Below, one piece after another: positions 13,411 through 21,194 of a stretch of DNA of 64,000 bases. This stretch comes from Agromyces sp. Soil535. Lineage in GTDB: Bacteria; Actinomycetota; Actinomycetes; Actinomycetales; Microbacteriaceae. The notes beneath the pieces are model-generated. The model was not told the DNA's origin. It saw nothing but the letters and a program-made list of their open reading frames with translations, and did no database searches. Both the position numbers and the translations under genes were made by a program. The stretch's first letter is position 1. Every line of letters begins with the position of its first letter. The stretch spans positions 1 through 64,000 of the forward strand of contig NZ_LMRW01000027.1 in assembly GCF_001428255.1 (NCBI RefSeq), in the 5' to 3' direction.

Positions 13411-14430
13411 ATGGTCGGCATGCACACCATTACACGAAACGGCGACTGGGCCGTCGAGGCCGATGGCCTCGTCAAGGTGTTCGGTACGAACCGCGCGGTC
13501 GACGGCGTCGACCTGCGGGTCGCGACCGGCACCGTCTACGGCGTCCTCGGACCCAACGGCGCCGGCAAGACCACCACGATCTCGATGCTCGCGACGCTGC
13601 TGCGGCCCGACGCCGGCACCGGCCGGATCTTCGGGCACGACGTGCAGCGGGAGGCGCAGGTCGTGAGACAGCTGATCGGCGTCACCGGACAGTACGCCTC
13701 GGTCGACGAGACCCTCTCCGCCACCGAGAACCTCGTGCTGTTCTCCCGCCTGCTCGGCCTCACGCACACCGCCGCGAAGGCCAAGGCCGCCGAGCTGCTC
13801 GAGGAGTTCGGACTGACGGATGCCGCGAAGCGGCCGCTCAAGAAGTTCTCCGGCGGCATGCGTCGCCGCCTGGACCTCGCCGCGAGCCTCATCGCGCAGC
13901 CGCCGCTCATCTTCCTCGACGAGCCCACCACCGGGCTCGACCCGCGCACGCGCGCGCAGATGTGGGACACGATCCGCCGCCTCGTGGCGACGGGCTCGAC
14001 GGTGCTGCTCACGACGCAGTACCTCGACGAGGCCGACCAGCTCGCCGACCGCATCGCGGTGATCGACCACGGTCGCGTCGTCGCCGAGGGCACCGCCGAC
14101 GAGCTCAAGGCGTCGATCGGCGCGTCGAGCCTTCAACTGCGACTCCAGGACCCGCGCGACCTCGACGACGTGCGCGTCGCGATCGAGCGGGTGCTCCGGG
14201 TGACGCCGACGATCTCACCCGAGGCCGGCCGCATCACCGCTCCGATGGACGACCCCGACGTCGTCACGGAACTGCTCCTCACCCTGCGCGACGAGGGCGT
14301 GCACCTCGCCGAGCTGAGCGTGCAGAAGCCCACGCTCGATGAGGTCTTCCTCACGCTCACCGGCCACGGCGTCGAGGACGCGGCATCCGCCACCGAAGCC
14401 GAAACCGAGCTCGAACGGAGCCGCGCATGA
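13411..14430 (+). CDS. DrrA-type ABC exporter ATPase, copy 1
   Basis: A 339-residue ATPase of the daunorubicin-resistance (DrrA) family. Walker A GPNGAGKTT is at 47-55, the signature FSGGMRRRLDLA and Walker B LIFLDEPTTGLDPRTR follow, and the H-loop region reads LLTTQYLDEADQLADR, a DrrA hallmark. The C-terminal accessory region ends with KPTLDEVFLTLTGHG. It powers export of a hydrophobic compound through the permease encoded next, whose ATG overlaps its stop by four bases. ATG at 13420 is an alternative start. It is highly similar along its full length to the protein at 19354-20367. Confidence 0.93.
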   Translation: MVGMHTITRNGDWAVEADGLVKVFGTNRAVDGVDLRVATGTVYGVLGPNGAGKTTTISMLATLLRPDAGTGRIFGHDVQREAQVVRQLIGVTGQYASVDETLSATENLVLFSRLLGLTHTAAKAKAAELLEEFGLTDAAKRPLKKFSGGMRRRLDLAASLIAQPPLIFLDEPTTGLDPRTRAQMWDTIRRLVATGSTVLLTTQYLDEADQLADRIAVIDHGRVVAEGTADELKASIGASSLQLRLQDPRDLDDVRVAIERVLRVTPTISPEAGRITAPMDDPDVVTELLLTLRDEGVHLAELSVQKPTLDEVFLTLTGHGVEDAASATEAETELERSRA

Positions 14431-15251
14431 CCACCATCGCCACCACCCCCATCACGCCGGGCGCGGCCCGCTCGCTGAAGAACCGCGTGAGCACGAGCGA
14501 GACCCTCTCGCACACGATCACGATGGCCTACCGCGGGTTGCTGAAGATCAAGCGCACGCCCGAGCAGCTCTTCGACGTGACCCTGCAGCCGATCATCTTC
14601 ACCGTGATGTTCACGTACATCTTCGGCGGCGCGATCGCGGGCGACGTGCAGAGCTACCTGCCGATCATCATCCCCGGCATCCTCGTGCAGACCGTCATCT
14701 CGACCTCGATCGTCACCGGGGTGCAGTTGCGCGAGGACATGGACAAGGGCGTGTTCGACCGGTTCCGCTCACTGCCGATCGCGCGCATCGCCCCGCTGTC
14801 CGGAGCACTGCTCGCCGACACGGTTCGCTACCTCATCGCCACGACCCTGACGTTCGTCATGGGATACCTCATGGGCCTCCGCCCGGAGGGCGGGCTCGGA
14901 GGCGTCATCGGTGCGGCGCTGCTCGTGATCGTGTGCGCCTGGTCGCTGTCGTGGATCTTCGCCTTCTTCGGCGTGATCGCGCGCAGCGCCTCGAGCGTGC
15001 AGGGCATCTCGATGCTCATCCTGTTCCCGCTTACGTTCCTCTCGAACGCGTTCGTGCCCGTCGACACCATGCCCGGCTGGCTGCAGTGGTTCGTCGACAT
15101 CAACCCCGTCTCTTACATCGTCACGGCAGTGCGCGACCTCGTGAACAGCGGAACGATCGGCGCGGACTTCGGCTGGTCGCTGGTCGGCTCGGCCGTGGTC
15201 GTCGCGGTGTTCGCTCCACTCACCGTGAAGGCCTACATGCGGAGGGCATGA
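14427..15251 (+). CDS. DrrB-type ABC-2 exporter permease, copy 1
   Basis: The 274-residue permease has about six membrane segments and the DrrB/ABC-2 features RTPEQLFDVTLQPIIFTVMF, YIFGGAIAG and FPLTFLSNAFVPVDTMP. Its start ATG overlaps the ATPase stop (ATGA, 14427-14430), indicating a two-subunit exporter made in stoichiometric amounts. The substrate cannot be read from the sequence. The convergent SARP gene ends 18 bp downstream. The protein shares long identical stretches with the permease at 20364-21194. Confidence 0.92.
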   Translation: MTTIATTPITPGAARSLKNRVSTSETLSHTITMAYRGLLKIKRTPEQLFDVTLQPIIFTVMFTYIFGGAIAGDVQSYLPIIIPGILVQTVISTSIVTGVQLREDMDKGVFDRFRSLPIARIAPLSGALLADTVRYLIATTLTFVMGYLMGLRPEGGLGGVIGAALLVIVCAWSLSWIFAFFGVIARSASSVQGISMLILFPLTFLSNAFVPVDTMPGWLQWFVDINPVSYIVTAVRDLVNSGTIGADFGWSLVGSAVVVAVFAPLTVKAYMRRA

Positions 15252-15268: not shown

Positions 15269-18200
15269 TCAGGGTGCGTCGGCCGGCGGAACGGGCGTTG
15301 CGAGCAACTCGTGCGCCCGTTCCGCGCATTCGTCGGTGGTGAGCGCGGCCGCAGCGTCGCGCGCGGCCGCGACCCGCTCCGCGCCGACGCGCGCCTCGGC
15401 GGCCGCGAGCAATCGGGCGAGGTTGAGCCCCGGAGTGTCCTGACGGCCCGACATGCGCTCGCCGAGCGCGAGCATCTCCAGCCCGCGTTCCTCGAGGCCC
15501 GGCTGGTGCATCGCCCACGAGCCCCAACCGATCGCGACCGTGCCGAGCACCGGCTTGTCGGTGAATCCCGGTCGCGCGCGGGCGGTTGCGGTCACGCGGT
15601 GACGCAGCCGCTCGGCCCAGCCGCGCACCTCGTCGGGCGGCCACCCCTCTAGTGCGCCGCGCGCGGCGAAGCCGGCTAGCACGATGAGGAACCAGGGGTC
15701 CCCTCGGCGGCGACCGTCATGGAACGCCGCGATCGCATGACGCGCGTGGGCCAACGACTCGGCCCGCCTGCCCTCGACGTGGGCGATCTCCGCGAGCCCG
15801 AGATCGGCGATGGTCGCGACCGTCATGCCGTCGGGGAGGGTGCGGTCGTCCTCCGCCATCGCGTCGAGCATGACTCGCGCCTCGTCGAGGCGGTCTGCGG
15901 CCACGAGCGCGCCCGCGATCATCCAGTCCACATGGAGCAGGTCCTGCTCGGCGTCGAGGCGCTCGAGCCCGATCCTGGCCTGGCGGGCGTGGCGGAGGGT
16001 CTCGAGAGGACGGCCCGACTGGCTCGCGAGCTGCGCGAGCATCATGGACGACACCGCCTCGACCAACACGTCGCCCAGGCGCTGCGCGAGCTCATGCGCG
16101 CGCAGCGCATACTCGCGTGCGGTTGCCGGATCCCCCTCGTTCTCGGCGAACTGCGACATCATGATGGAGCCGACCACTGCGGTGTCGGGATCGTCCGACT
16201 CCGACATCGCGCGGAGCCTGGACAGCGACTCGCCCACGTCGGGGAGCGCGAGCAGGAAGCCGCTCGTCGCCGCGATCCACGGTGGCATCGGATGTCCCGA
16301 CCGGGCGAGCAGGCGAAGGCGGGCGAGGCCGCGCGTGGCGGTCGTCGTGCCGGCGGCGAGGTGGGTCGCCGAAACGAGTGTGAGCGCCAGGGTCGCCGGC
16401 GCGGCCAGTTCCGGCCCCGGACGACTGCCGCGGGTGCCGTCGAGCACGGCGTCGCCGAACGCCAGGATCTCGGAGTGCGCGCTCCGCGCGGTCCATCGAT
16501 AGGCGAGCGTCGCGAACACCGGGTACACCGTCTCCGCCCGACCATCGGCGATGGCGCGCCGCAGGATCGCGACGAGGTTGTCCTCTTCGAGGTCCAACGT
16601 TCGGAAGGCCTCGATCTGACCGGGTCCGCGGACGACGGCGAGGGCGTGCGTGGACAGCGCCACCGCCCACGCGTCCATCGCCGCGAGCGCGCCGGCCTCG
16701 TCGCCGGATTCGGTCAGGCGCAGCTGCCCGAACTCGCGCACGGTCTCGAGCATGCGGTAGCGGGGGGCGGGCGACCCCATGGACGCGGCCACCGAGAGCA
16801 GCGACTGGGCGATGAGCCCGTCGAGGAGCCAGAGGGCGTCGCCCGACCCGGTCACGGCGTCGGCCGCGTCGAGGCCGAAGCCGTCGGGGAACCACGAGAG
16901 CCGGGCCATGGCGAGCCGCTCGTCGGGCGTGAGCAGCGCCCAGCTCCAGTCGATGACGGCGTGGAGCGTGCGCTGACGCGCGGGCGACGAGCGGTCGCCG
17001 CCGGCCAGGAGCGCGAACCGGTTCGCCAGGCGCGCCTCGATCTGCTCCACCGTCATCGAGCGCACCCTGGCTGCCGCGAGTTCGATCGCGAGGGGCAGTC
17101 CGTCGAGTCGCGTGCACAGCCGGGCGACCGCCTCGAGCGGCAGGTCGGCGGCGGGCCTCGCCGCGACGGCCCGCTCGAGGAAGAGCTCGACCGCCGGCCC
17201 GGCGACGTCGGCGGCGAGCGCCTCGAGCGGATACGCCTGCTCGGCGCCGATCATGAGCGGGCTCCGGCTCGTCGCCAGGACGCGTAGCGACGCGATCGAA
17301 CCCAGGAGGTCGGCTGCCCAGCGGGCCGCCCCCTCGATCACGTGCTCGCAGTTGTCGAGGACGAGGAGCGCCGGCCACTCCTCAAGCCGGGCGATGATGC
17401 GCCCCCGCACGTCGAGCCTCGCCTCGCCGAGGCGCTGGCTCGTCGACGCCTCGCGAACGCCCAGCGTCGACGCGAGCGCCAGCACGACGTCGTCATCCGT
17501 GCGGATGCTCGCCAGCTCGACCACGACGACGAGGGGATCGTCGGCCCGTGCCGCGACCTCCTGCGCGATGCGCGTCTTGCCGAGTCCGCCACCGCCGAGC
17601 ACGGTCACGAGCCGACGCCGGCGGAGCAGCCGTTCGATGGCGACGATGTCCTCGTCGCGGCCGATCAGGGCGTTCGCGGCGGCCCGCACGCCGATGCGCA
17701 CCGAGCCTCGACGGGGCTGCTCGTCGGCGCGCAGCAGCTCGGCGTTCAGTTCGACGAGTTCGCTCGCGGGCGACACTCCGAGCTCTTCGCCGAGCCGCTC
17801 GCGGAACGCGCCGAACTCGGCGATGGCTTCGACACGACGGCCGGATGCCGCGAGCGCACGCAGTCGGCGGGCGACGAGGTCCTCGTTCGCGGGTGACGCC
17901 GCCATGAGCACGGCGAGGTCGTCTGCCGCCCCGGTGTGATCGCCCGCCGCGTCGCGCGCAGCGGCGCGCCGCGCGAGCAGTTGCAGGCGCAGCGCACCGG
18001 CGCGCTCGGCGAGGGTCTGGGCGATCGGGGCATCCCCGAGGTCGAGTGCCGGCTCGCCGCGCCACAGGGCGAGCGCCTCGTCCACTCCGACGGCCGAACC
18101 CTCCCCGTCGGCCGCCCCGGCCACGCCGAGGTCGAGTTCCGAGGATGAGATCGCCAGTGCGTAGCCGCCCGGATGGGAGGCGATGAGGTCGTCGGCCGTG

Positions 18201-18451
18201 ACCGCGCGCACCCGGCTCACGAGCGTCTGCAGGGCGGCCCTCGCGTTGCGAGGCGTCGCGTCGCCCCAGAGCTCGTCGGCGATGACGTCGATGCCGACGG
18301 TGCCGCCCACCGTGCGGGGCAGCACGGCGAGCGCGGCCACGAGCGCCTTCGCCAGCGCGCCGGGCGGCTCGATGAGGGCGCCGGAACGACCTTCGAGAAG
18401 GACCGGGCCGAGCACGCCCACACGAAGGTCTGGGCGTGGTTCGATCGGCAC
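15269..18451 (-). CDS. AfsR-like SARP transcriptional regulator with STAND ATPase and TPR-like regions
   Basis: A 1060-residue regulator. The N-terminal 95 residues form an OmpR-like winged helix (LRVGVLGPVLLEG to SHPGGYALAI), followed by a bacterial transcriptional activation domain to about residue 245. A STAND-type ATPase comes next, with Walker A GGGGLGKT near residue 285 and Walker B ALLVLDNCEHV, then DGLPLAIELAAARV. The C-terminal 450 residues are helical repeats of TPR type. Such proteins activate secondary-metabolite or export genes on ligand or signal binding. The GTG at 18451 is 7 nt after TAGGCT (18464-18459, minus strand), hence leaderless; GTG at 18457 is an alternative. It is convergent with one exporter pair and divergent from the operon of the other. 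Confidence 0.9.
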   Translation of the reverse strand: MPIEPRPDLRVGVLGPVLLEGRSGALIEPPGALAKALVAALAVLPRTVGGTVGIDVIADELWGDATPRNARAALQTLVSRVRAVTADDLIASHPGGYALAISSSELDLGVAGAADGEGSAVGVDEALALWRGEPALDLGDAPIAQTLAERAGALRLQLLARRAAARDAAGDHTGAADDLAVLMAASPANEDLVARRLRALAASGRRVEAIAEFGAFRERLGEELGVSPASELVELNAELLRADEQPRRGSVRIGVRAAANALIGRDEDIVAIERLLRRRRLVTVLGGGGLGKTRIAQEVAARADDPLVVVVELASIRTDDDVVLALASTLGVREASTSQRLGEARLDVRGRIIARLEEWPALLVLDNCEHVIEGAARWAADLLGSIASLRVLATSRSPLMIGAEQAYPLEALAADVAGPAVELFLERAVAARPAADLPLEAVARLCTRLDGLPLAIELAAARVRSMTVEQIEARLANRFALLAGGDRSSPARQRTLHAVIDWSWALLTPDERLAMARLSWFPDGFGLDAADAVTGSGDALWLLDGLIAQSLLSVAASMGSPAPRYRMLETVREFGQLRLTESGDEAGALAAMDAWAVALSTHALAVVRGPGQIEAFRTLDLEEDNLVAILRRAIADGRAETVYPVFATLAYRWTARSAHSEILAFGDAVLDGTRGSRPGPELAAPATLALTLVSATHLAAGTTTATRGLARLRLLARSGHPMPPWIAATSGFLLALPDVGESLSRLRAMSESDDPDTAVVGSIMMSQFAENEGDPATAREYALRAHELAQRLGDVLVEAVSSMMLAQLASQSGRPLETLRHARQARIGLERLDAEQDLLHVDWMIAGALVAADRLDEARVMLDAMAEDDRTLPDGMTVATIADLGLAEIAHVEGRRAESLAHARHAIAAFHDGRRRGDPWFLIVLAGFAARGALEGWPPDEVRGWAERLRHRVTATARARPGFTDKPVLGTVAIGWGSWAMHQPGLEERGLEMLALGERMSGRQDTPGLNLARLLAAAEARVGAERVAAARDAAAALTTDECAERAHELLATPVPPADAP

Positions 18452-18533
18452 GCGCACGAGCCTACCCGTGGGCACGGACGCCCCGCCTCGATCCTGACAG
18501 GTTCGCCGTCGCCGACGCCTCGAGATGCGGATA

Positions 18534-18580
18534 AGCAACAAGGGTTGACAAAACACTATTAGCAACCTAAGTTGCTTACA
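18534..18580 (+). promoter_or_regulatory. Leaderless promoter with two inverted-repeat operators
   Basis: TTGACA (18545-18550) and TAAGTT (18568-18573) are separated by 17 bp; the expected transcription start is the A of the ATG at 18580. Two related palindromes cover it: AGCAAC-AAGG-GTTGAC (18534-18549, imperfect) includes the -35 box, and AGCAAC-CTAA-GTTGCT (18561-18576, perfect) includes the -10 box. They are 27 bp apart centre to start. Occupancy would block RNA polymerase, so I infer repression, most likely by the HTH protein encoded immediately downstream. Confidence 0.85.
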
Positions 18581-18816
18581 TGACCCCGCGAATCCCGGAA
18601 CCGATCGGCGCCGAAGCCGACGACCTCGCCGCCGTCGTTGCGCTGCGCGAGCTTGCAGACCGGCTCGAGGACGCCGCCGTCGAGCGGGCGATGCGCGCCG
18701 GTTGGAGCTGGACGCAGGTTGCCGAGGCGCTCGGCGTCACGCGCCAGGCCGTGCACAAGAAACACCACCGGCGACTCGAAGCCGCCGGCATCGAACTGAG
18801 GAGGCGCAATGCGTGA
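18580..18816 (+). CDS. Small helix-turn-helix protein, partner of the Clp N-domain protein
   Basis: This 78-residue protein is little more than a DNA-binding domain: an acidic helix (DDLAAVVALRELADRLEDAAVERAM) followed by GWSWTQVAEALGVTRQAVHKKHHRRLEAAG, a clear helix-turn-helix of the sigma-region-4/AsnC type. Translation starts at the predicted transcription start, so the mRNA has no leader. The stop overlaps the next gene by eight bases, implying a shared complex. Pairs of this kind are common in actinobacteria. I infer that it binds the AGCAAC palindromes at its own promoter. Confidence 0.85.
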   Translation: MTPRIPEPIGAEADDLAAVVALRELADRLEDAAVERAMRAGWSWTQVAEALGVTRQAVHKKHHRRLEAAGIELRRRNA

Positions 18817-19306
18817 GGTACCCGAACCCCTCGACGGCGGCGTGGGCGTCAGCCTGAAGCGCATCGTCCAGCGAGCCATCGACGAGGCCGTGCGGCGAGG
18901 CGCGCCGAATGTCGAGGCCGAGCACCTGCTGCTCGTGATCTCGGCCGGAGACGATGCAGCCGGGAGGGCGCTCGCCGAGGTCGGACTCGATCACGCGGGC
19001 GTGGAGGCAGCGCTCCGCGAAGAACGCGAGCGAGCCCTCGCGGCAGCGGGGGTCGAGCCCGTGGCCGAGGAGCGGCTGCGGTCCACCCGCAGGTCGCGAC
19101 CCGGCTGGGGCGCCTCGTTCCGCGAGGCCATGCTCCGTGCGGACTTCCGCACACGTCGCGACCGCAGCCGCGACGAGCGCGAGCGACTCGCGGTCGCCTC
19201 CGCGCTGCTCGGCATCCTGCGTGCCGACCTCGGTACCGTGCCGCGTGCGCTCGCCTACGCGGGCGTCGACCGGCGCGCCCTCATCAACCGACTCGAACAG
19301 CTCTGA
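18809..19306 (+). CDS. Stand-alone Clp N-terminal domain protein
   Basis: A 165-residue protein made almost only of a Clp_N (double ClpA/ClpC N-repeat) domain: SLKRIVQRAIDEAVRRGAPNVEAEHLLLVIS gives repeat one and RLAVASALLGILRADLGTVPRALAYAGVDRRAL repeat two. No AAA+ module follows. In ClpC such domains bind adaptors, phosphoarginine and cyclic peptide antibiotics. Mycobacterial ClpC2, another orphan N-domain protein, is reported to bind cyclomarin and to control its own expression. Coupling to an HTH gene and a drug-type exporter suggests a ligand-sensing role here. The two repeats are joined by an Arg-rich linker (RSTRRSRPGWG). Confidence 0.85.
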   Translation: MREVPEPLDGGVGVSLKRIVQRAIDEAVRRGAPNVEAEHLLLVISAGDDAAGRALAEVGLDHAGVEAALREERERALAAAGVEPVAEERLRSTRRSRPGWGASFREAMLRADFRTRRDRSRDERERLAVASALLGILRADLGTVPRALAYAGVDRRALINRLEQL

Positions 19307-19353
19307 CGGCTCGAACGACCTGACGACTCGAACAATTCTGAGAGGACCGTGCC

Positions 19354-20367
19354 GTGACCACCTCCACCACCGGCTGGGCCGTTGAGGCCGAGGGCCTCGT
19401 GAAGGCCTTCGGGGACACCCGTGCGGTCGACGGCGTCGACTTGCACGTCCCCACCGGTTCCGTCTACGGCGTGCTCGGCCCGAACGGGGCCGGGAAGACC
19501 ACGACGATCTCGATGCTCGCGACGCTCCTTCGTCCCGACGCCGGGAGTGCCCGCGTCTTCGGCCACGATGTCGTGCGGGAACCGCAGATCGTGCGCCAGC
19601 TCGTCGGGCTCACCGGCCAGTACGCCTCACTCGACGAAGCCCTCTCGGGCGTCGAGAATCTCGTGCTGTTCTCGCGGCTGCAGGGTTGCAGTCGCGCAGG
19701 GGCAAGGCGAAAGGCCGCCGAACTCCTCGAGGAGTTCGGGCTCGCGGATGCCGCGAAGAAGCCCGTCACGCAGTACTCGGGCGGCATGCGCCGGAGGCTC
19801 GACCTCGCGGCGAGCCTCATCGCCCAGCCGCCCCTCATGTTCCTCGACGAGCCGACCACCGGCCTCGATCCGCGTACGAGGGCGCGGATGTGGCAGACGA
19901 TCCGCCGCCTCGTCGCGACCGGGTCGACGGTGCTCCTCACCACGCAGTACCTCGACGAGGCCGACCAGCTCGCCGACCGCATCGCGGTCATCGACCACGG
20001 TCGTGTGGTCGCCGAGGGCACCAATGAGGAGCTCAAGGCTTCGGTCGGGGAGTCGAGCCTGCATCTCCGCCTCGTCGACGCCGACGATCTCGACGACGCC
20101 AGCGTCGCTCTTGAACGCGTGCTCGGCGCCCGCCCGGCCGTCTCGCCCGAAGCCGGCCGCCTGACTGCGCCGATACAGAATGCCGACCGCGTGACCGACC
20201 TGCTCGTTACGCTTCGCGAGTCCGGCATCCGCGTCGCCGAGATGAGCGTCTCGAAGCCGACACTCGACGAGGTGTTCCTCACGGTCACGGGCCACGGGGT
20301 CGAGCCAGACCAGATGGACGACGTCGACGCCGAGGCATCCGCCGCACTCGAAGGGAGCCGCGCATGA
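19354..20367 (+). CDS. DrrA-type ABC exporter ATPase, copy 2
   Basis: A 337-residue ATPase with Walker A GPNGAGKTT, signature YSGGMRRRLDLAASLIAQPP, Walker B LMFLDEPTTGLDPRTR and the DrrA hallmark LLTTQYLDEADQLADR. It starts at GTG 19354 after GAGAGGA and lies 47 bp after the Clp N-domain gene in the same direction, so it is probably part of one operon driven from 18545. It is a close paralogue of the ATPase at 13411-14430; the cores are almost identical and differences cluster at the N-terminus and in the linker before residue 300. Confidence 0.93.
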   Translation: MTTSTTGWAVEAEGLVKAFGDTRAVDGVDLHVPTGSVYGVLGPNGAGKTTTISMLATLLRPDAGSARVFGHDVVREPQIVRQLVGLTGQYASLDEALSGVENLVLFSRLQGCSRAGARRKAAELLEEFGLADAAKKPVTQYSGGMRRRLDLAASLIAQPPLMFLDEPTTGLDPRTRARMWQTIRRLVATGSTVLLTTQYLDEADQLADRIAVIDHGRVVAEGTNEELKASVGESSLHLRLVDADDLDDASVALERVLGARPAVSPEAGRLTAPIQNADRVTDLLVTLRESGIRVAEMSVSKPTLDEVFLTVTGHGVEPDQMDDVDAEASAALEGSRA

Positions 20368-21194
20368 CCACCGCGACCGTCACCCCTGCGCTCATCATCC
20401 CCGGCGCCGAGCGCTCACTCAAGAACTCCGTGGGCCTTGGCCAGACGCTCTCGAACTCGTTCGCGATGGCGTGGCGGGGGCTCCTGAAGATCAAGCGGAC
20501 GCCCGAGCAGCTCTTCGACGTGACGTTCCAGCCGATCCTGCTCACCGTCATGTTCACGTACATCTTCGGCGGCGCGATCGCCGGTACACCCGAGGACTAC
20601 CTGCCGTTCATCGTGCCGGGCATCCTCGTGCAGACCGTCATCATGACCTCCGTCGTGACCGGGGTGCAGCTCCGCGAGGACATGACGAAGGGAGTCTTCG
20701 ATCGGTTCCGATCGTTCCCGATCGCACGCGTCGCGCCCCTCGCGGGCGCGTTGCTCGCGGACACCGTTCGGTACGCGATCGCGTCGCTCGTGACGTTCGC
20801 CACCGCCCTCGTGATGGGCTACCGGCCCGACGGCGGTCTCGCCGGCGTGCTCCTCGCGAGCGTGCTCGTGATCGTGTCGGCCTGGTCGCTCAGCTGGATC
20901 TTCGCGTTCTTCGGCGTCATAGCGCGCTCGGCGGGCGCGGTGCAGGGCATCTCGCTGATGATCCTGTTCCCGCTCACGTTCCTCTCGAACGCCTTCGTCC
21001 CGGCGTCGACGATGCCCGACTGGCTCGCGTGGTTCGTCAGCGTGAACCCGGTTTCGCACCTCGTCACCGCCACACGGGAACTCACGACGACGGGCGCGTC
21101 GGGCGTCGAGGTCTGGGTGGCGCTCGCCGCGTCCGCCGCAGTGGTCGCCGTGTTCGCACCGCTCACGGTGCGCGCCTACATGCGGAAGGCGTGA
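20364..21194 (+). CDS. DrrB-type ABC-2 exporter permease, copy 2
   Basis: The 276-residue permease overlaps the ATPase gene by ATGA (20364-20367). It repeats the DrrB features of copy 1 (LLKIKRTPEQLFDVTFQPILL, YIFGGAIAGTPEDYLP, FPLTFLSNAFVPASTMPDW). It is the last gene of the inferred HTH/Clp-N/ATPase/permease operon; the next gene converges on it 21 bp downstream. The region around residues 215-250, facing outward in ABC-2 proteins, differs more from copy 1 than the rest and may reflect a different substrate. Confidence 0.92.
   Translation: MTTATVTPALIIPGAERSLKNSVGLGQTLSNSFAMAWRGLLKIKRTPEQLFDVTFQPILLTVMFTYIFGGAIAGTPEDYLPFIVPGILVQTVIMTSVVTGVQLREDMTKGVFDRFRSFPIARVAPLAGALLADTVRYAIASLVTFATALVMGYRPDGGLAGVLLASVLVIVSAWSLSWIFAFFGVIARSAGAVQGISLMILFPLTFLSNAFVPASTMPDWLAWFVSVNPVSHLVTATRELTTTGASGVEVWVALAASAAVVAVFAPLTVRAYMRKA

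Follow-up and report, generated by a model that had tools for sequence, protein, structure and literature searches.

The mycobacterial protein ClpC2 (Rv2667 and its Mycobacterium smegmatis orthologue) is the one natural counter-measure, in the literature found, to a ligand of ClpC1, a tuberculosis drug target. As described (PMC10030653), ClpC2 represses its own gene, cyclomarin lifts this repression, and ClpC2 serves as a sponge for cyclomarin; its operators, CGTCAAC-n5-GTTGACG, overlap the −35 and −10 elements of a promoter whose transcript is likely leaderless. The terms "HTH" and "helix-turn-helix" are absent from the main text of that paper, as are "transporter" and "operon", and no exporter output is described there; a helix-turn-helix (HTH) region in ClpC2 has already been noted through HHpred similarity to RelI (PMC13284704, NAR 2026). 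Here we consider a locus at positions 18534 to 21194 of a 64-kb stretch of DNA from Agromyces sp. Soil535 (contig NZ_LMRW01000027.1, positions 1 to 64,000; "the window" in what follows). Operator layout, half-site and HTH are all common to this locus and to fused ClpC2-like forms, and the locus thus looks like a ClpC2-like autoregulator that is split over two genes and has an exporter for its output.

Four genes on the forward strand, HTH, Clp_N, DrrA and DrrB, sit in this order behind two palindromes and apparently form one operon, judging by the open reading frame (ORF) calls. The gene for the HTH DNA-binding protein (18580-18816, 78 aa; Pfam HTH_23, E 7.5e-6, above the family cut-off) and that for a stand-alone, ClpC N-domain-like Clp_N protein (18809-19306, 165 aa; Pfam Clp_N, E 1.5e-7, above cut-off) lie in different frames and overlap by 8 bp (18809-18816). 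The AlphaFold2 model of the HTH protein (mean predicted local distance difference test score, pLDDT, 86) has a long helix of 29 residues (11-39), a helix at 44-51 and a recognition helix at 55-68. The Pfam match in the Clp_N protein covers one repeat (residues 24-73), and the AlphaFold2 model is a complete double-repeat ClpC-type N-domain (mean pLDDT 91) with ClpC N-domains as its top PDB matches. In the two alignments used for structure prediction the window protein was joined by 44 relatives out of 65 eligible ones and by 39 out of 70. A broken remnant of ClpC was rejected as an identity for Clp_N, given the intact ORF, the full double-repeat model and a C-terminal motif of its own. This motif, of the GTVPRA type, occurs in the alignment in Clp_N of Microbacteriaceae and of a Nocardia/Streptosporangiaceae group. 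A Clp_N family search of the 4.83-Mb assembly gave five matches, one in the window gene and the other four in a pair of longer ORFs (903 and 896 aa, two matches apiece), so that the window Clp_N is the sole stand-alone one found in the assembly.

The gap between Clp_N and the next gene is 47 bp. This gene encodes a DrrA-type ATPase of an ATP-binding cassette (ABC) exporter (19354-20367, 337 aa; ABC_tran, E 3e-29, and DrrA1-3_C), with readable Walker A (GPNGAGKTT), signature (SGGM) and Walker B motifs. The DrrB-like ABC-2 permease (20364-21194, 276 aa; Pfam ABC2_membrane, E 1e-30) overlaps DrrA by 4 bp. The pair resembles the daunorubicin-type DrrAB exporters in that DrrA passes the curated NCBIfam drrA model TIGR01188 (374.7 bits, cut-off 312.45) and is followed by an ABC-2 permease, and differs in that the permease passes Pfam ABC2_membrane and stays under the curated drrB cut-off (TIGR01247, 75 bits vs 223.05); the pair is a predicted exporter. 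The terminator scan gave no terminator-like site on the forward strand between 18450 and 21300. An earlier reading of the sequence, referred to here as the original prediction, had described the 8-bp overlap, DrrAB next in line and two palindromes in front, which ORF calls, Pfam and exact matching bear out, and had taken sensor (Clp_N), DNA-binding part (HTH) and output to be split into separate genes, as they indeed are, here in a ClpC2-like circuit.

Operator 1, AGCAAC-AAGG-GTTGAC (18534-18549), and operator 2, the perfect palindrome AGCAAC-CTAA-GTTGCT (18561-18576), are exact matches and are kept in relatives, operator 1 in both position and spacing. The strict pattern AGCAACNNNNGTTG is found free of mismatches at just two places in the 64-kb window, 18534 and 18561, and at one further place in the 4.83-Mb assembly; with a single other genomic match, the circuit probably acts locally. 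As read from the sequence, the right half of operator 1 supplies a −35 element, TTGACA (18545-18550, forward strand), and 17 nt after it operator 2 contains a −10-like TAAGTT (18568-18573, forward strand), which fits TAnnnT, not TATAAT. The stretch TTGACA-17-TAAGTT ends 6 bases ahead of the ATG, which makes a leaderless transcript probable, with transcription starting on or close to the A of the HTH initiation codon. A simple sigma-70 scan of the locus did not report a promoter.

The recurrence of this arrangement was followed in 185 loci, of which 80 came from a phylum-wide HTH search, 80 from named species and 25 from a family search; a recognisable HTH is present in 177. In the phylum-wide search the HTH profile matched in 109 of 396 genomes at E 1e-5, and 100 places were chosen among the matches listed: 80 were picked for the most part among short frames of top E-value, with a few weak matches added, and the remaining 20, open frames of 238-286 aa, were taken for the set of fused proteins considered below. 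The species collection contributed the best 80 of 563 confirmed HTH relatives, and among these the closest named relatives of the module are in A. ramosus and A. albus. As gene calls often missed Clp_N, it was located on stop-to-stop frames. Clp_N lies within 1.8 kb behind HTH in 167 of the 177 loci, and in 149 of 159 (144 of 154 after removal of repeats) when the 18 loci fetched via Clp_N are left out, so that the gene order extends well outside this strain, as the original prediction requires. Nine of the ten loci without Clp_N (L130-L136, L138, L139) are weaker HTH members, at E 2e-15 or worse, and every locus with Clp_N has an HTH match at E 5e-16 or better; at the tenth, L179, Clp_N was called further downstream. 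Removal of repeats leaves 158 distinct loci with Clp_N, which span many actinobacterial families plus a few gammaproteobacterial metagenome-assembled genomes (MAGs). Clp_N starts within −25 to +30 nt of the HTH stop in 145 of them, and the classical 4-bp overlap of the two genes occurs in 66. Genomes of the host family have a Clp_N match in 26 of 150 cases. Nine loci (L008-L014, L016, L017) show HTH, Clp_N and DrrA in this order, and DrrB comes next wherever the flank is long enough; at L015 Clp_N and DrrAB are present, HTH not being found in the short stretch examined. On these counts the HTH-Clp_N pair is a conserved module that recurs widely in actinobacteria.

The operators recur with the genes. 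Within −150 to +130 of the called HTH start, CAAC-n4-GTTG is found in 116 of 157 distinct loci, in 80 of them in two or more copies, as against 5 of 2833 control stretches of equal length from the same loci. Other spacers between CAAC and GTTG are rare or missing upstream of the split HTH (n3 and n5, 0/157 each; n6, 2/157). An operator pair with a distance of 24-29 bp is present in 80 of 158 loci, window included, and 79 of these 80 fall at 27-29. Operator 1 has GTTGAC as its right half, and thereby supplies the −35, in 74 of the 80 paired loci; TAnnnT lies inside operator 2 in 71, the spacer between −35 and −10 being 16-18 nt in the 65 loci having both. The AGCAAC palindromes, which the original prediction had offered as binding sites, are thus conserved predicted operators. 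Upstream regions were inspected at 31 loci; many of those lacking the strict operator have a variant of it, such as GTCAAT-n4-GTTGAC, and others show none, in part because the HTH start was badly called. A chance neighbourhood of HTH and Clp_N was rejected in view of the pairing and of operator conservation across loci.

Twenty fused proteins (235-277 aa as called; L142-L161) all join an N-terminal HTH to a following Clp_N, a "Rosetta stone" case for the split pair. Near the start of the fused genes CAAC-n5-GTTG is present in 18 of 20 loci and the n4 form in none of 20, and the 16 fused loci with an operator pair have the same −35/−10 geometry as the split loci. Alignment of the split HTH profile with the fused one by hhalign, using 15 of the 20 fused proteins, gave a probability of 97.7% (E 1.8e-12). 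Half-site and layout are common to both forms, and the spacer differs by one base (4 vs 5 bp). In 11 of the 20 genomes with a fused form the split pair is present as well, in five with a strict n4 operator. This co-residence, with n5 on one side and n4 on the other, suggests that operator spacing keeps the two sister circuits apart.

The same family likeness reaches ClpC2 itself. Our HTH profile (A5) aligns with the crystallised ClpC2 fragment 8ADA over residues 31-72 (E 4.5e-5), and the Clp_N profile (A4) matches ClpC2 in 8AD9 (E 4e-14) and ClpC (E 1e-22). A Foldseek search started from the HTH model had no match better than E 0.5, and VIA-align gave a best Z of 6.8, a middling value typical of a generic HTH; 8ADA was not among the matches listed, so that the link to ClpC2 rests on sequence profiles. 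Window and ClpC2 have in common an HTH of the same family, Clp_N, GTTG half-sites, two palindromes over −35 and −10, and a likely leaderless start. They differ in that ClpC2 is one polypeptide and the window has two ORFs, in the operator spacer (5 bp in ClpC2; 4 bp in AGCAAC-n4-GTTGAC and AGCAAC-n4-GTTGCT of the window), in the phenylalanine pair through which ClpC2 binds cyclomarin, replaced by D9 and W100 in the window, and in the exporter. By its sequence, then, the window system has the design of ClpC2, but split and wired to an exporter, and it is not ClpC2 itself, given its two chains, its n4 operators and the missing Phe pair. The original prediction had drawn on ClpC2 for comparison; its picture of ClpC2 as a bare N-domain does not hold, ClpC2 being an HTH and Clp_N fusion, and the nearest known relative is for this reason the fused form. 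Among the listings read from literature searches of open-licence full text, there was none of a paper that describes HTH and Clp_N split over two genes beside an exporter.

What the sequences show directly is the order of the genes, the operators, the geometry of the promoter, the homology of both HTH and Clp_N to fused ClpC2, and a variety of outputs rich in exporters. We think it rather likely that the window holds an export operon that responds to stress and regulates itself locally, with a split ClpC2 as its regulator, and we infer an HTH-Clp_N complex, the direction of control and its release, the class of ligand and the transport as follows. A dimer of HTH would occupy the two palindromes, built of GTTG half-sites, which lie over the −35 and −10 elements of the putatively leaderless promoter. 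Clp_N, made from the overlapping gene, would bind HTH non-covalently and act as the sensor, and the dimer with Clp_N bound would repress HTH, Clp_N, DrrA and DrrB together. A ligand in the Clp_N groove, most likely a peptide-like foreign compound unlike cyclomarin, would relieve the repression; the extra Clp_N would then soak up the compound as a sponge, and DrrAB would export it.

Clp_N might instead be a sponge or anti-repressor without ligand gating, buffering a toxin or shielding ClpC next to an HTH that is a plain autorepressor. The uptake of cyclomarin by ClpC2 (PMC10030653) speaks for such a division of labour, as does the far lower conservation of Clp_N than of HTH: in the eleven closest loci Clp_N is 42-63% identical to that of the window, and HTH, present in ten of these, is 66-90% identical. 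The tight pairing and overlap of the genes and the covalent fusions that use the same half-sites tell against it, and suggest that HTH and Clp_N work together as a single regulator; we regard an ungated sponge as quite improbable.

Several observations weigh against an export operon under a split, ligand-released ClpC2. The strict operator is absent in 41 of 157 loci. At 83 of the 158 loci the 300 nt behind Clp_N gave no gene call on the same strand, partly through failures of gene calling, and coupling to an exporter is therefore not universal. In ClpC2, DNA contact has been assigned to the Clp_N residues R185 and R189, the double mutant binding more weakly (PMC10030653), and this reduced binding weakens the case for HTH as the only reader of DNA. 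The phenylalanine pair that anchors cyclomarin in ClpC2 (F96/F172) corresponds in the alignment to D9 and W100 of the window Clp_N. Finally, of three ClpC1-binding peptides only cyclomarin is reported to raise the level of ClpC2 in Mycobacterium tuberculosis, ilamycin and ecumicin binding ClpC2 without doing so (PMC12913811); binding to Clp_N need not mean induction.

As to the reader of DNA, 8ADA (ClpC2 residues 4-72) stops at residue 72, immediately before the HTH recognition helix, and so the ClpC2 structure could not reveal the likely DNA-reading part. The counterparts of R185 and R189 in the alignment are F and R for the window Clp_N, and A and G for that of Nonomuraea (L177), the operators being conserved nonetheless. 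The profile match to 8ADA, its end point and these aligned residues beside conserved operators together point to HTH as the main DNA reader in split and fused forms alike.

As to the ligand, the Clp_N fold, as modelled, fits a peptide-binding groove. A cyclomarin-type pocket was rejected for the window Clp_N, the Phe pair being absent, and with the anchoring residues not conserved cyclomarin itself is an unlikely ligand. The proposal that the locus detects the known ClpC-binding drugs is accordingly not supported in the form in which it was made. Some other peptide-like compound is suggested by one class of output found behind the module, the PF00144 hydrolases, which include enzymes that cut D-peptides. 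A D-stereospecific peptidase has been reported to hydrolyse gramicidin (PMC9541196). Given these two points, a peptide-like ligand is a reasonable lead by analogy.

The other 75 of the 158 loci do have a called gene on the same strand in the 300 nt behind Clp_N, and 73 of the 75 proteins were scanned, two under 100 aa being left out. ABC ATPases account for 27 of the 73, PF00144 hydrolases for 9, subtilases for 3 and GNAT proteins for 2; a dioxygenase and a phosphatase occur once each. Among the upstream neighbours (130 of 131 genes of at least 100 aa; L163:5528-6004, which overlaps HTH, was left out) ABC_tran is found in 4 of 130, and the 25 families listed, down to a count of 2, do not include PF00144. 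The excess of ABC_tran behind the module, 27/73 vs 4/130, has a Fisher p of 2e-10, related loci not being independent. PF00144 is the superfamily of serine hydrolases that comprises class C beta-lactamases, D-peptidases and esterases. Three of the hydrolases were scanned against NCBIfam; no family came above its cut-off, and D-aminopeptidase models match weakly. The hydrolases are possible inactivators of the sensed compound. The PF00144-type genes stand directly behind the module at L168, L169, L174, L175, L185, L188, L189, L213 and L215, in Nocardia, Nonomuraea, Crossiella, Herbidospora and other hosts (four scanned by name, nine by tally and cluster).

Outputs differ even at one syntenic site in Agromyces. 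DrrAB stands there in the window, and in A. albus (L163) and a further genome (G142, L062) an unrelated ABC-2 exporter whose ATPase is 38-40% identical to DrrA; the A. albus ATPase groups with ATPases of Nonomuraea and Actinoplanes, apart from that of the window (tree support 91). In A. ramosus (L162) HTH and Clp_N are open and just the last 97 aa of DrrB remain (L162:6743-7036), which indicates a deletion of most of the exporter. A quick tree with open forks (136 of 159 rows, odd lengths left out; ABC labels of L007, L184 and L191 set by hand; "none" labels partly gene-calling failures) contains a clade of 29 rows in which exporters (12, two of them labelled by hand) and PF00144 hydrolases (9) alternate. 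The exporter is thus one of several predicted, interchangeable outputs. The coupling to an exporter put forward in the original prediction does recur, with an ABC ATPase in 27/73; the exporter is not the defining partner, and the defining unit is HTH-Clp_N rather than Clp_N plus exporter, because the exporter is one output among several.

The nature of the outputs also bears on the possibility that the module senses proteotoxic stress, unfolded or damaged proteins titrating Clp_N off HTH, with exporter or hydrolase as a general envelope or stress response. The ClpC N-domain fold binds substrates and adaptors, ClpC2 is described as mildly heat-induced (PMC10030653), and outputs without obvious drug relevance do occur (subtilase in 3/73, the single dioxygenase and phosphatase). 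Against this, ABC ATPases are strongly over-represented downstream (27/73 vs 4/130), and exporters (12) and PF00144 hydrolases (9) alternating in the 29-row clade would be expected for sensing of one class of small foreign molecules. We hold a proteotoxic-stress sensor to be unlikely, though worth keeping in mind.

Beyond the window, it is tempting to extend the split-ClpC2 reading to a phylum-wide family of HTH-Clp_N xenobiotic sensors, a proposal that we make tentatively and to which we would give somewhat less than even chances. The fold that is the antibiotic target in ClpC would serve as an exchangeable receptor and the HTH/GTTG code would be fixed, with a spacer of 4 in split and 5 in fused forms insulating co-resident circuits; exporters, PF00144 hydrolases and acetyltransferases would be swappable. 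Mycobacterial ClpC2 would then be a fused branch without output, its DNA read by the HTH recognition helix and not by the Clp_N surface. If a phylum-wide ClpC2 family tied to exporters and hydrolases is real, such operons would point to new natural ligands of Clp_N and hint at resistance genes, and the operator would give a simple reporter for finding such compounds. The part of ClpC2 expected to read DNA would also change, since 8ADA ends where the recognition helix starts.

Divergent from the module, and with the upstream promoter region in common, lies a gene for an AfsR/SARP-like regulator with BTAD and NTPase domains (15269-18511, reverse strand, start codon uncertain; ORF, Pfam and NCBIfam). 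This position, together with SARP-like genes near the module at six loci (L014, L062, L165, L166, L206, L221; three of them Pfam-scanned), could mean that the module chiefly controls the SARP gene, a regulator of secondary metabolism, the exporter being a passenger of natural-product biology. That is very improbable in our view, as six loci out of 177 scanned (up to three genes upstream and five downstream, some flanks being short) are few, and none turned up in the 12 kb scanned in either A. ramosus (L162) or A. albus (L163).

A second pair of genes, DrrA2 (13411-14430, forward strand, about 76% identical to DrrA; ORF, Pfam, tree) and its neighbour DrrB2, a DrrB paralogue (14427-15251, forward strand; ORF, Pfam), stands beyond the SARP gene (13411-15251). 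In the DrrA tree, which includes one S12 protein (L213), DrrA2 is the sister of DrrA (support 90), and the pumps that follow Clp_N in Leifsonia are nearer to DrrA2 than to the window DrrA. DrrA2B2 was rejected as a second target of HTH, there being no exact or one-mismatch operator before DrrA2.

Two other described systems invite comparison. TipA of Streptomyces is a MerR-type activator whose drug-binding part is also made alone. It resembles the window system in outline, as an autoregulated, drug-binding multidrug sensor (PMC7762955), and differs in being a single gene with folds unrelated to HTH and Clp_N. The antitoxin RelI (Rv2664) is likewise a short actinomycete HTH protein and belongs to the same superfamily, profile A5 matching 9SDC at E 1.9e-7; it pairs with the toxin RelS, and PMC13284704 reports no evidence for DNA binding by RelSI, whereas the partner in the window is Clp_N and the operators are conserved. 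RelS was not met beside HTH, the neighbours being Clp_N, DrrA and the divergent SARP gene, and no RelS model was searched for. A RelI-type antitoxin was rejected as an identity for HTH on account of the adjoining Clp_N and SARP genes.

Some further members of the family depart from the common arrangement. A weaker HTH subfamily without Clp_N stands directly before ABC transporter genes at L133, L138 and, in the source genome itself, at G000:C12:134747-134875 (L137), where the HTH frame contains a stop codon. HTH-Clp_N pairs are present in gammaproteobacterial MAGs at L218, L219, L229 and L231; if these contigs are binned correctly, a transfer of the module between phyla may have taken place. 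At L018 and 16 similar loci (17/158) the Clp_N proteins are 326-356 aa long with Clp_N at the start, and in that of L018, the one of the 17 that was scanned, Clp_N is followed by an AHSA1/SRPBCC-type domain.

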